A stretch of DNA of 30,252 nt from a virus. Each line of letters opens with the position of its first letter. The first letter of the stretch is position 1. Below are positions 22,864 through 29,984 of the stretch, piece after piece. The stretch spans positions 1-30,252 of the IMG/VR virus record IMGVR_UViG_3300049216_000270, one strand, 5' to 3'. The notes below the pieces were generated by a model. That model ran no database searches. It worked only from the letters and a program-made list of their open reading frames with translations, and had not been told where the DNA came from. The position numbers were made by a program, and so were the translations under genes.

Positions 22864-22935
22864 TGCGTGGGGTCGGGATCGAACCAACGGCCTCGGCGTT
22901 TTCACCACCGCGCTCTTCCACTGAGCTACCCACAC
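22864..22935 (-). tRNA. tRNA-Phe (anticodon GAA)
   Basis: All arms fold. Acceptor GTGTGGG pairs with CCCACGC (one G-U), the D stem is GCTC/GAGC, the anticodon stem CGGTG/CGCCG encloses GTGAAAA with anticodon GAA, and the T stem GTTGG/CCGAC has loop TTCGATC. The discriminator is A and no CCA is encoded. It lies between two leftward early genes and would be cut out of their mRNA. Confidence 0.92.
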
Positions 22936-24711: not shown

Positions 24712-24785
24712 TGGCGGGGGCCGGATTTGAACCGGCGACCTTCGGGTTATGAGCCCAACGAGCTGCCTGACTGCTCTACCCCGCT
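24712..24785 (-). tRNA. Initiator-type tRNA-Met (anticodon CAT) in the early operon
   Basis: Acceptor AGCGGGG pairs with CCCCGCC except at 1-72, which is A against C. The D stem is GAGC/GCTC with A11-U24. The anticodon stem has three G-C pairs (GGG/CCC) next to loop CTCATAA, and the T arm is GCCGG-TTCAAAT-CCGGC. An unpaired 1-72, A11-U24 and the GGG/CCC block are the hallmarks of bacterial initiator tRNA; elongator tRNA-Met lacks them. The discriminator is A; no CCA is encoded. In E. coli tRNA-fMet the 1-72 mismatch is C-A, so this version is reversed. Confidence 0.9.
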
Positions 24786-26010: not shown

Positions 26011-26053
26011 CATTATTATTGACCTAATTGCTACGCCAGAGCAGACTTAAGTG

Positions 26054-26716
26054 ATGAACAGATTTTCGGAAATGATGATAAAACTTCGCAAAGACCGGAG
26101 CATGAGCCGAAGGTATGTTGGTGAGAAAGTTGGCGTTGATTCGGAAACAATTTTGCGACTTGAAAAACGACGGTCCCCTCCCGCTGGTGACACATATCGG
26201 AAAGTCTTAGAACTCTATGGCACCACGCCAGAGAAACAGTTGCGGGTGTGGCGCGACTCCGGCGAGCCGCTCGACAACAACGCTGAGCCATATTCCCGCG
26301 TCGAGGTTTCGGACATCCCCACTTTCGACCTGCCGGTGGCCGCCGGCCCTTGGATGGAGCTGCCGGAAGTGTTGGAGGATGACGAGCGCCAGAAGCTCGC
26401 GCACAAAACGGGCCGGTTCCGAATCCGAATCCGGGGGGATTCGATGGAGAAAAAATATCCAGACGGCAGCCTGATCGAGTTTTGCTGCCTGAGAGTCGAG
26501 GCGGAGGACGATCCGCGATCAAAGATGATCGTGGGGGCGGATTACTACATTCAAAAAGCATCGGCAGCGACATTCAAGCGGCTTGAATCCTTCGACGACG
26601 GCGTGCTGGTGTTCCGCGCACTCAATCGCAAAAAGTATCCGGCGAAAATTGAAGTCCTCCGCGATGACCTGGTGCAGATGTCCAAAGCGGAGTTCATTCT
26701 TGTGAAGGCCAGTTAA
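26054..26716 (+). CDS. CI/LexA-type prophage repressor (HTH + S24 peptidase)
   Basis: A 220-residue protein from ATG 26054 (a GTG precedes it; ribosome site is poor, so low-level expression is plausible). Residues 1-65 are a helix-turn-helix: SMSRRYVGEKVGVDSETILR. The C-terminus is an S24 self-cleaving domain: the FDLPVAAGPW segment gives the Ala97-Gly98 cleavage bond, Ser130 is in GRFRIRIRGDSM, and Lys168 in DYYIQKAS is the likely partner. That set suggests RecA-stimulated cleavage and SOS induction. It diverges from the early operon across the operator array. Residue numbers count from ATG 26054. Confidence 0.92.
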   Translation: MNRFSEMMIKLRKDRSMSRRYVGEKVGVDSETILRLEKRRSPPAGDTYRKVLELYGTTPEKQLRVWRDSGEPLDNNAEPYSRVEVSDIPTFDLPVAAGPWMELPEVLEDDERQKLAHKTGRFRIRIRGDSMEKKYPDGSLIEFCCLRVEAEDDPRSKMIVGADYYIQKASAATFKRLESFDDGVLVFRALNRKKYPAKIEVLRDDLVQMSKAEFILVKAS

Positions 26717-26725
26717 GGTGCCACC

Positions 26726-27154
26726 ATGGAAAAATGTGCAAATTGCGATGCAGTGATCGGGGAACTCGAAACGCCCCACGTTTGGCGCGGCGAGGTGGTG
26801 TGCGAGACTTGCCACCTTCGTCTTTCGATGCGTCGAGCCATTGTGAAATCCGAACCTCAGCCAGTATTGAACAAGACACCAACCGCTTCTGATGCCACGA
26901 TGTGGGGCATTCTCAAAGCCGGTGCCGTTGTGCTGTTGACGTTGTTCATATTGGCAGCCTTGGCGTTTGCTTTTTACAAACGATCTGAGGCGGGTGATAG
27001 GTATTTAACCGAGCATACGGATGACTGGAAAGAATCTCAGAAAATAGTGGCGGAGCAACAGAGGGCTATGGACACTTCCGCCGCCATCAAGCGCGATGGT
27101 GAGGCCGCAAATGCCGAATTTGAAGCCGAAATATACAATCACGATCATCCCTAA
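26726..27154 (+). CDS. Zinc-ribbon membrane protein downstream of repressor (cargo candidate)
   Basis: A 142-residue protein; AAGGTGCCACC precedes ATG 26726, nine bases after the repressor stop, so expression from the prophage is likely. Residues 1-35 have two CxxC pairs (CANC 4-7 and CETC 26-29), a zinc ribbon. One membrane helix follows (about 60-85: WGILKAGAVVLLTLFILAAL). A charged coiled-coil segment ends the protein. This cytosolic zinc ribbon plus tail-anchor-like layout is common in lysogenic conversion or superinfection-exclusion genes, but no family is recognised. The gene is flanked on both sides by copies of the repressor's last 18 codons. Confidence 0.75.
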   Translation: MEKCANCDAVIGELETPHVWRGEVVCETCHLRLSMRRAIVKSEPQPVLNKTPTASDATMWGILKAGAVVLLTLFILAALAFAFYKRSEAGDRYLTEHTDDWKESQKIVAEQQRAMDTSAAIKRDGEAANAEFEAEIYNHDHP

Positions 27155-27155
27155 T

Positions 27156-27209
27156 GATGACCTTGTGCAAATATCGAAGGCGGAGTTTATTTTGTTGAAG
27201 GCAGGGTAA
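27156..27209 (+). pseudogene. Remnant of a second repressor gene (3' end only)
   Basis: These 54 bases encode DDLVQISKAEFILLKAG and a stop. They match the repressor's last 18 codons at 26663-26716 in 42 of 54 bases and 14 of 17 residues. Most differences are at third positions, so both were under protein-level selection before they came to lie here. There is no start or upstream portion. Confidence 0.85.
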
Positions 27210-27233
27210 CACTCTATTTTTCGGAGAAAAATT

Positions 27234-27785
27234 GTGACGCATCGGATTATAGCTGCTTTATTGTTGGTTTCGGTTGTGGCCCCTACTCTGTGCCGCGCCG
27301 ATTCAATCGAAGAAACCGAAGCAAAACAGCGAGGCGTGAGCGTAGAGACGGTCCAGCTTGAGGATGCGAGGGCACATATTGCCGAATTGGAAAAACGGTT
27401 AGCTGATCTGAAAAAGAAAAACGATGAACTCACTATCGAAAACTCAGCCATGGCTACACAAATCAAAGCGCAGTCAGACGCGATAAATAAGTTGAAGCCA
27501 ACCACGTTACCGTCCAGCCAATTTGAAGAAAAAATTAAAAATCACGGAATTGCAAACGGAATGTCTCTCGACGAATTGAATCAAGCTTTTCCGGCAAAAA
27601 CATATCTGGTCAATAAGGTTGGGGAAAATGACGATGAAAAATTCTATGAAATTTGGGGGCCTCAAATGAGCCAAATTGCCGTAGGCAACAGGGTAATCGG
27701 CACCTCCAGGCAAGTGCTTTTTTACAAAGCGACCATTGTCAATGGAAAAGTTACGCAATGGCGAGAGGTACCCCTGACAAATTGA
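27234..27785 (+). CDS. Secreted coiled-coil protein, AT-rich (probable lysogenic cargo)
   Basis: A 183-residue protein using GTG 27234 with CGGAG seven bases upstream. Residues 1-22 are a signal peptide (IIAALLLVSVVAPTLCRADS). Residues 40-85 form a coiled coil (EDARAHIAELEKRLADLKKK). The C-terminal 90 residues are a small domain (GMSLDELNQAFPAKTYLVNK, EIWGPQMSQIAVGNRVIGTS, VTQWREVPLTN). GMSLDELNQAF-type segments resemble the repeat seen in BamE/SmpA-like outer-membrane proteins, but this is weak. The base composition is distinctly more AT-rich than the surrounding phage genes, suggesting foreign origin. Confidence 0.75.
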   Translation: MTHRIIAALLLVSVVAPTLCRADSIEETEAKQRGVSVETVQLEDARAHIAELEKRLADLKKKNDELTIENSAMATQIKAQSDAINKLKPTTLPSSQFEEKIKNHGIANGMSLDELNQAFPAKTYLVNKVGENDDEKFYEIWGPQMSQIAVGNRVIGTSRQVLFYKATIVNGKVTQWREVPLTN

Positions 27786-27833: not shown

Positions 27834-28034
27834 TCACGCCAGCAGGTCATCCACCCGCACCCCCACAAGCTCCGCCATGGCCGCTGCAGCATCCACGCCG
27901 GGGATGCGCTCACCCTTCTCCCACCGCTGGAGGTTCGCTGGCGTCACGCCCAGGGCACGTGCGGCATCACTGGCCACGGGGTATTTCTTCTCGCGCCGGC
28001 GACGGAACTTTTCGGGGGACCACTTCTTGGCCAT
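27834..28034 (-). CDS. XRE-family transcription regulator, 66 residues
   Basis: ATG 28034 with a weak AAAGTAG site. Nearly the whole protein is one HTH_3 domain: MAKKWSPEKFRRRREKKYPV, then ASDAARALGVTPANLQRWEK and GERIPGVDAAAAMAELVGV, ending DDLLA. The R-W-E-K-G-x-x-x-P-G motif is the standard XRE turn. It is convergent with the cargo gene and follows two tiny genes leftward from the promoter at 28591. A candidate ligand site is the palindrome in that promoter; it may be a Cro-like or integrase regulator. Confidence 0.88.
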   Translation of the reverse strand: MAKKWSPEKFRRRREKKYPVASDAARALGVTPANLQRWEKGERIPGVDAAAAMAELVGVRVDDLLA

Positions 28035-28622: not shown

Positions 28623-29984
28623 TTACCCCGCCCTTTTCTTTGCGGCAGCTTCCTCCCCCGCCTCTGCCGCCGCCGCCAACATCCCCGCCACCCCCGCCAC
28701 CACGCCCTCCCTCACCTTTTCCTGCCGGGCGATGGCGTAGTGCTTCTGGGTCGTGGTCATGGTTTTGTGCCCCATGGCGGCGGAGACATGCGGCATGGGC
28801 ACCCCCGCCTCCAGCATCGCGGTGCAGAATGTGCGGCGGAGGTCGTGGAGCGTGGTGCGGGGGACGATGCCGGCGGCGGCAAGGATTCGTTTCATGGCCC
28901 TCGTCACCCCCACGATCGGCTTCACCTCCCCCGCGACGAAGCCGGGGGCCAGCATCCGCATCGCGGTCGATTGGGATATGCCGACCTCCCGCGCAATACC
29001 CCTCGTCGTCATTCCCTCGGAGGCCAGTGCCGTGGCGCGGGCGTGCTGTTCGCTGGTGAAGCGTTTGGCTGCAAATACGTAGGGAGAGTCGTCCGCGCGT
29101 TTTTCGAGCAAGGCGACGGCCTCCGGGGCGAGCTGGATCACCAACGGCTGGCCGTTCTTGTAAATTTCCCCCGGGATCCGCCAGGTGCAGCGCTGGAGGT
29201 TGATGTCTTCCCATTTCATGGCGGCGACGTTGGATCGCCGCGCGCCCGTGTAGAGGGCGATGAAGAAAAAATCCCGCAAGGTTTCATTGGGCTCGGCGGC
29301 GAGAGCGGCTAGGAAGCGGGAGAGTTCATCCGGGGACAGCAGGCGGTCCCGGGCGTTCTCTCGGTAGCGATCGACGCCGGCGGTGGGCGTGTAGAGGGCG
29401 GCGAGGCCGAAGAATTTGCCGCGCTTGCGGTACATGCACGACAGCAGGGCGAGAACGCGGTTGGCAGTGGTGGTGCTGGTGGCACCGATGCGTGTCTTCA
29501 GCAGGTCGACATCGGTGGAGGCGATTTCGCTGATGAGGCGATTCCCCGCCCATGGCTTCACGTGCGATTCGTAGAGCCGGGTATCCTCGGCGATGCTCCG
29601 CGGCTTCTTGTGCTGTTTGGCATGGCTGTCGAGGTAGCTTTGCCACAGGTCGGCGAGGGTGGCGGCTTCGCGCTTGGCGACCTTTTCGGCTTGCGGATTC
29701 TCCCCCCTTGCGATTGCACTGTTGATTTCGCCTGCACGGTGCCGGGCTCGTTCGACTGTCCATTCCGCTGGAGTCCCCAGCTTCATCCGCTGATATCTTC
29801 CCCCCACCCGACGGCAGAAATAGAAATTCCGCACGCCGCCTTCGGTGACGCAAAACGCCAGCCCTGGCACCCGGGTATCGTACACGTACACCCGGCCGTC
29901 CCCATCGTCGCGCCCGCTGGGTTCGCATGTGACGGCGGATAGAGAATTTACAGTGAAGTTGAACCGGGTGAGTTGTTTCGCCAT
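28623..29984 (-). CDS. int: Tyrosine-family integrase with inserted resolvase-type HTH
   Basis: A 453-residue protein from ATG 29984 (GAAGGGTATCGGC upstream). Residues 30-95 are a DUF4102-like arm-binding domain (VYVYDTRVPGLAFCVTEGGV, RNFYFCRRVGGRYQRMKLGT), 108-200 the core-binding domain, and the rest catalytic: Arg249 (YTGARRSN), Lys276, His380-x-x-Arg383 (LHDLRRTF), His406 (AMGHKT) and Tyr416 (QKHYA). Between the lysine strand and HxxR lies an extra segment, about 312-346, reading RATALASEGMTTRGIAREVG then ISQSTAMRML: a helix-turn-helix of the type seen in serine recombinases and transposases. Integrates phage DNA at the adjacent tRNA-Lys site. Confidence 0.95.
   Translation of the reverse strand: MAKQLTRFNFTVNSLSAVTCEPSGRDDGDGRVYVYDTRVPGLAFCVTEGGVRNFYFCRRVGGRYQRMKLGTPAEWTVERARHRAGEINSAIARGENPQAEKVAKREAATLADLWQSYLDSHAKQHKKPRSIAEDTRLYESHVKPWAGNRLISEIASTDVDLLKTRIGATSTTTANRVLALLSCMYRKRGKFFGLAALYTPTAGVDRYRENARDRLLSPDELSRFLAALAAEPNETLRDFFFIALYTGARRSNVAAMKWEDINLQRCTWRIPGEIYKNGQPLVIQLAPEAVALLEKRADDSPYVFAAKRFTSEQHARATALASEGMTTRGIAREVGISQSTAMRMLAPGFVAGEVKPIVGVTRAMKRILAAAGIVPRTTLHDLRRTFCTAMLEAGVPMPHVSAAMGHKTMTTTQKHYAIARQEKVREGVVAGVAGMLAAAAEAGEEAAAKKRAG

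Follow-up and report, generated by a model that had tools for sequence, protein, structure and literature searches.

A diverged second repressor end in the lysogeny region of a temperate phage: probable trace of recombination between related phages

Results

The repressor-integrase region of the phage

The window analysed here, meaning the whole stretch of DNA under study, is the 30,252-base IMG/VR virus record IMGVR_UViG_3300049216_000270, a single metagenomic contig. Terminase, portal and major head protein genes are encoded in it, together with a tyrosine integrase; the phage is a tailed, temperate one. The best terminase match among sequenced genomes (53%) lies in a Phycisphaerales MAG, which points to a host that is probably planctomycete-like. 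A second contig, L002, carries terminase-region sequence identical to that of the window; the repressor was not matched in L002, whose coordinates stop short of the joint described below. The phage also carries a tRNA-Phe (GAA) at 22864-22935 and a tRNA-Met (CAT) at 24712-24785, both on the reverse strand. Scans of the window for sigma-70 promoters and terminators returned signals at or below the level of shuffled sequence. The features of the repressor-integrase region are as follows.

26051-26716, forward strand: phage repressor A, with an XRE-type HTH domain (about residues 1-70) and a Peptidase_S24-like C-terminal domain (about residues 74-221)
26663-26716, forward strand: tail A, the closing 17 codons of the intact repressor plus its stop (sequence alignment)
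26726-27154, forward strand: cargo 1, 142 aa, with an N-terminal CxxC...CxxC zinc-ribbon-like domain and one hydrophobic segment (residues 57-84, from hydropathy)
27120-27155, forward strand: probable upstream extension of the remnant, LKPKYTITIIPN (broad tail profile), which shares its DNA, in a different frame, with about the final 11 codons of cargo 1
27156-27209, forward strand: tail R (the remnant), a second and diverged version of the repressor end, stop included (sequence alignment)
27234-27785, forward strand: cargo 2, 183 aa, with a signal-peptide-like N-terminus, a coiled coil and a C-terminal alpha-beta part
27834-28034, reverse strand: small HTH_3 protein of 65 aa, the next gene, on the opposite strand (Pfam HTH_3, E 1.6e-9)
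28623-29984, reverse strand: tyrosine integrase (Pfam Phage_integrase, E 4.7e-24)

Repressor A matches Pfam HTH_3 (E 2.1e-6) and Peptidase_S24 (E 6.4e-6), both above cut-off, as well as the PHROG 4 transcriptional repressor (E 3.4e-14). By domain content it is classed as an S24-type (CI-like) phage repressor, and its position and domains are what suggest a role in immunity. When its two domains were compared separately with those of other loci, the HTH scored best with ten loci between L078 and L102 (117-130), followed by L101 (86), and the S24 half with L110, L076, L103 and L112 (348-202). The two lists do not overlap, and neither group leads in the other half. As judged from these resemblances, repressor A is chimeric, the HTH being like that of Phycisphaerae-class regulators and the S24 half like that of a phage clade.

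Both cargo genes sit between the repressor and the integrase. Cargo 1 starts 9 bp after repressor A, and cargo 2 begins 24 bp after the remnant. Third-position GC content (GC3) falls along this stretch, from 0.65 in the repressor body to 0.54 in cargo 1 and 0.46 in cargo 2, the structural genes standing at about 0.77. Further along, the integrase gene shows an unusual pattern: two Phage_integrase stretches, with HTH_23 and HTH_7 matches in the middle of the protein (residues about 312-345), as if an HTH had been inserted into the catalytic domain.

A second, diverged copy of the repressor end

The end of repressor A recurs behind cargo 1. As originally predicted, and with exactly the coordinates and identities then given, tails A and R share 42 of 54 bases and 14 of 17 residues; the peptides read DDLVQMSKAEFILVKAS (A) and DDLVQISKAEFILLKAG (R), each followed by TAA. 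The best local DNA alignment of the repressor with positions 26726-27233 scores 52, the maximum in 1000 first-order Markov shuffles being 37. At the protein level the tail match scores 71, and 60 shuffled versions of the downstream 3 kb reach 34 at most. The match is far above chance. In a second-tail test done alike on 59 other repressors (each with at least 300 bases of downstream sequence, in differing lengths up to 3 kb), the next best score was 42 and none of the 59 had a clear second tail downstream. The segments immediately 5' of tails A and R differ.

Inspection of the codon list bears out the earlier statement that most of the changes are silent (8 of the 12 base differences). By the NG86 method, dN is 0.12 and dS 1.92, giving a dN/dS of about 0.06, values that are rough since they derive from 17 codons. 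The two copies thus appear to have diverged mainly as coding sequence; such a predominance of silent differences is not what would be expected of an in-place copy that had simply decayed. The claim that the repeat is no fresh duplication holds on the same figures. Tail R is a gene fragment homologous to the intact gene and diverged from it as coding sequence, although the main signal comes from 17 codons only.

The frame of the remnant is open from 27048 to 27206, over 53 codons. When the window was searched with a broad profile of 51 family tails, from which its own sequence was excluded, the best segment after the repressor itself was the remnant frame, ungapped over PKYTITIIPNDDLVQISKA (E 0.47). 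Of 3000 random window translations placed 5' of the same core, eight reached the real score with this profile, and four of these eight were pieces of the intact repressor. An ungapped comparison with 30 tails gave p 0.029 (best score) and p 0.032 (summed score); tails with an unplaceable core (score under 10) had been dropped, and the window's own repressor was among the 30 kept. A narrower tail profile, which held one wrong row (a Cro-like protein of L111), gave no support for an extension, 1074 of 3000 random upstreams scoring at or above the real one, and comparison of the upstream part with repressor A alone was unremarkable (p 0.07; 0.43 ungapped). Upstream the remnant reads LKPKYTITIIPN-DD, and other family repressors read comparably, such as LNDKYPAEIYDR-DD. 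The loop from KY to DD counts seven residues in the remnant, as it does in L096 and L081, and eight in repressor A. It is likely, but not proved, that the repressor homology of the remnant reaches back to about 27120. In that case the zinc-ribbon gene would owe about its final 11 codons to repressor DNA in a different reading frame, which would put the joint within the 3' end of that gene.

An exported-protein gene in the slot after the repressor

Single-protein scans with the repressor (viral and genome contigs) and with cargo 1, cargo 2 and the integrase (viral contigs) gave no confirmed relatives. Relatives of the repressor came from a class-wide genome search and from alignment-based scans, the nearest being those of L110, L076, L103 and L112 (38, 39, 33 and 32% identity over the alignment, respectively). 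The four loci and the genes that follow their repressors are:

L110 (IMGVR_UViG_3300049571_000389): repressor 49% over residues 74-217; slot gene for a protein with a signal peptide and a weak match to DUF4177, below cut-off
L076 (a genome in the class of G007): repressor 45%; slot gene for a 315-aa protein with two hydrophobic segments
L103 (IMGVR_UViG_3300045051_001503): slot gene for a GYF_2 and membrane protein (GYF_2, E 7.2e-7)
L112 (IMGVR_UViG_3300037231_000288): slot gene for a 173-aa anchored protein

In all four, a gene on the same strand starts within 8 bp of the repressor stop, on either side (-8 to +8), and encodes a strongly hydrophobic segment; the baseline for such an exported or membrane neighbor is 103 of 551 comparable pairs in 84 long loci. 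The window repressor likewise has, within about 10 bp, a gene with a hydrophobic or signal segment. "Exported" here stands for a 17-residue window with a mean Kyte-Doolittle value above 1.7, used in place of a signal-peptide predictor. Among more distant repressors, an exported neighbor was counted for 4 of the 16 viral ones and for 7 of the 38 from genomes; most of the others have no adjacent gene. These last counts were made with a crude gene caller allowing a gap of up to 30 bp, which misses, for example, the overlapping signal-peptide gene of L113, so that L113 was scored negative. L077 was dropped as a close relative: a non-membrane gene follows its repressor, and the match is confined to the S24 half.

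Among the two cargo proteins of the window and those of the four relatives, only the L076 and L112 proteins are similar, and weakly so. The weak resemblance of these two (L076:1188-2135 and L112:5660-6181) is in the C-terminal region, with E 4e-8 when searched one way and 0.45 the other way; their N-terminal parts differ.

The two cargo genes

The first 33 residues of cargo 1 are 55% identical (E 1e-12) to a protein encoded directly after the HTH/S24 gene of L101. The latter is an HTH relative of repressor A, and the zinc-ribbon homologue follows it directly, with a 23 bp overlap. This single case could mean that HTH type and zinc-ribbon cargo travel together. A general tie of the zinc-ribbon domain to repressors was considered and dropped, the domain being a common N-terminal one in the class of G007 (51 of 377 genomes); of the 30 loci examined, the only one near a repressor of the window repressor's family was L160, which is the place already known as L101. 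The zinc-ribbon-like domain (CxNCxxxIGxLExPxxWxxxxVCxxC) precedes many different proteins, many of them with hydrophobic segments (L101:1495-2623; L160-L189). Its Pfam match is only a weak one, to DUF4428, and cargo 1 has no match among the PADLOC models.

Cargo 2 starts with a GTG codon preceded by GGAGAAAAATT; the CGGAGAAAAATT found before this GTG is much like the AAGGAGAAAAAAC that precedes the GTG of the L110 signal-peptide gene. No relatives of the coiled-coil gene were found in 397 genomes of the class of G007, in viral contigs, in the phage collection or at the DNA level. The single-sequence structure model of the protein is weak (pLDDT 65.6) and has no PDB match with E at or below 0.001; on both counts a BamE/SmpA-like C-terminus was dropped. 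One weak PADLOC match, to LmuB (E 0.0017, residues 33-164), is taken for a coiled-coil match.

Discussion

Temperate phages are known for gene swapping, and phage genomes are mosaic. The joint described here is a mosaic joint of known kind. We consider it probable (about 0.68) that positions 27156-27209 are the leftover end of a second repressor, in an arrangement produced by offset recombination between two related temperate phages. In one parent, the zinc-ribbon membrane gene would have stood behind repressor A; in the other, the secreted coiled-coil gene and the integrase arm would have stood behind a different repressor, R. Through a crossover out of register (unequal or illegitimate), the zinc-ribbon gene would have been fused at its 3' end to the final 18-30 codons of repressor R. 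Repressor A would have stayed intact, R would have shrunk to a tail scar, and the two genes for exported proteins would have come to lie one behind the other, between repressor and integrase. The best reading places the joint within the 3' end of the zinc-ribbon gene, which was probably formed by it. Both parents and the single-crossover route are inferred, yet one such event would account for the intact repressor, the tail scar and the tandem exported genes, and also for the L110-like ribosome site and GTG start of cargo 2 and for the drop in GC3.

The original prediction that the remnant comes from a different repressor allele gains from the coding divergence and, upstream, from what is probably a one-codon loop change fitting other family repressors; the parent itself is deduced. 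The original wording, in which an older repressor lost its body when another one was spliced in before it together with cargo, describes one direction of the same crossover. The data are compatible with either side as the resident one, and with the arrival of a whole repressor plus cargo or of its tail plus cargo. A search for a relative in which a remnant-type tail (...NDDLVQISKAEFILLKAG) is followed by the coiled-coil gene found none, an empty result that is no proof of absence.

A different route, which we regard as unlikely, would be the insertion of a cassette, consisting of tail A and the zinc-ribbon gene, into the end of a resident repressor, whose own 3' end would have been replaced and displaced as tail R; the repressor body would then be resident and only its tail new. 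A gene end, a cargo and a displaced gene end form the anatomy that such an insertion leaves, and variable cargo occupies the same spot in 4 of 4 close relatives. Some integrative elements do insert in gene 3' ends and bring a replacement end, and the window resembles them in this order of parts. Unlike them, however, its insert is only about 490 bp long and has no integrase: the one ORF between the tails lacks similarity to recombinases. The only repeat noted here that could flank the insert is the tail pair itself. Moreover, GC3 is the same in the repressor body (0.65) and in tail A (0.67), and the segments just before the two tails are unlike each other.

Quite improbable, too, is a local tandem duplication of the repressor 3' end, in which the zinc-ribbon gene would have entered between the copies and the second copy would then have decayed. 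This would need one genome only, and the 17 core codons do align best with repressor A itself. A decaying non-coding copy should nonetheless lack the predominance of silent changes seen in the remnant, and the segment 5' of DD differs in length from that of repressor A and resembles other repressors. A metagenome assembly chimera of two phages is highly improbable. The joint is present in a single contig, and L002, with its identical terminase region, ends before reaching it; but the tails are 78% identical without a long exact repeat, so that an assembler would have had no shared long word to join them by. Hardly credible is the idea that the remnant is still used, either through a +1 frameshift at CCC-TAA that would give the membrane protein a repressor peptide end or by translation of the remnant frame alone: the zinc-ribbon ORF ends CAT CCC TAA (27142-27154), a +1 shift enters the remnant frame exactly and that frame is long, but such a codon pair readily arises by chance before a stop, and a ribosome site for a separate start was not identified.

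The suggestion that the repressor 3' end may be a general docking point for swapping immunity and cargo fits the variable slot, whose exported gene differs between all four nearest relatives. Because no clear second tail was seen downstream of the 59 other repressors, this suggestion rests on cargo variability and not on repeated scars. A broader scheme can be put forward only tentatively. The S24 half of the repressor might, in temperate phages whose hosts are of planctomycete type, serve as a constant block of homology, the immunity HTH domain upstream of it and an exported, host-style gene downstream being exchangeable; crossovers might swap these separately or together, with tail scars recording such events.

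Their position in the lysogeny region, on the repressor strand, and their predicted export suggest that both cargo proteins are made by the lysogen and act at its envelope. The two genes would presumably be transcribed together with the repressor, and by analogy a part in superinfection exclusion or another form of lysogenic conversion may be envisaged; no family match in Pfam, PHROG or PADLOC links the window's cargo proteins to exclusion. Exported superinfection-exclusion genes occur in lysogeny modules, as does Sie2009 of Lactococcus phages. In the cI-rexA-rexB operon of lambda an accessory gene lies directly after the repressor, as in the window, and RexB is a membrane protein; the likeness meant here is one of arrangement, and the content of the slot, unlike that of lambda, changes here from phage to phage. 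Lambdoid morons and mosaic joints show cargo of odd base composition at a gene boundary, with a gene fragment left at the joint. The fragment in the window differs from these in being a second copy of the end of the neighboring gene, so another repressor allele would have been involved. In Streptococcus thermophilus phage TP-J34, Ltp is a lysogeny-module protein that is transcribed in the prophage and blocks DNA injection (PMC3952083). As in the window, its locus has a gene for an exported protein beside the repressor; unlike the presumed host of the window phage, that of Ltp is Gram-positive, and no sequence relation between Ltp and the window's cargo is implied. What is described of the Ltp locus includes no repressor-tail scar (PMC3952083), a contrast drawn from a narrow literature search, so that such scars may have been reported. 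The exclusion gene of phage Fc02 is described as part of the repressor transcript, lying upstream of the repressor (PMC9936078).

Mosaic joints rarely reveal which neighbors were exchanged. Here, the diverged repressor tail behind a cargo gene suggests that the gene downstream of it was formerly associated with another immunity type, and that exported proteins expressed by lysogens, possibly exclusion factors, are worth seeking immediately behind the repressor in the phages of poorly studied bacteria.
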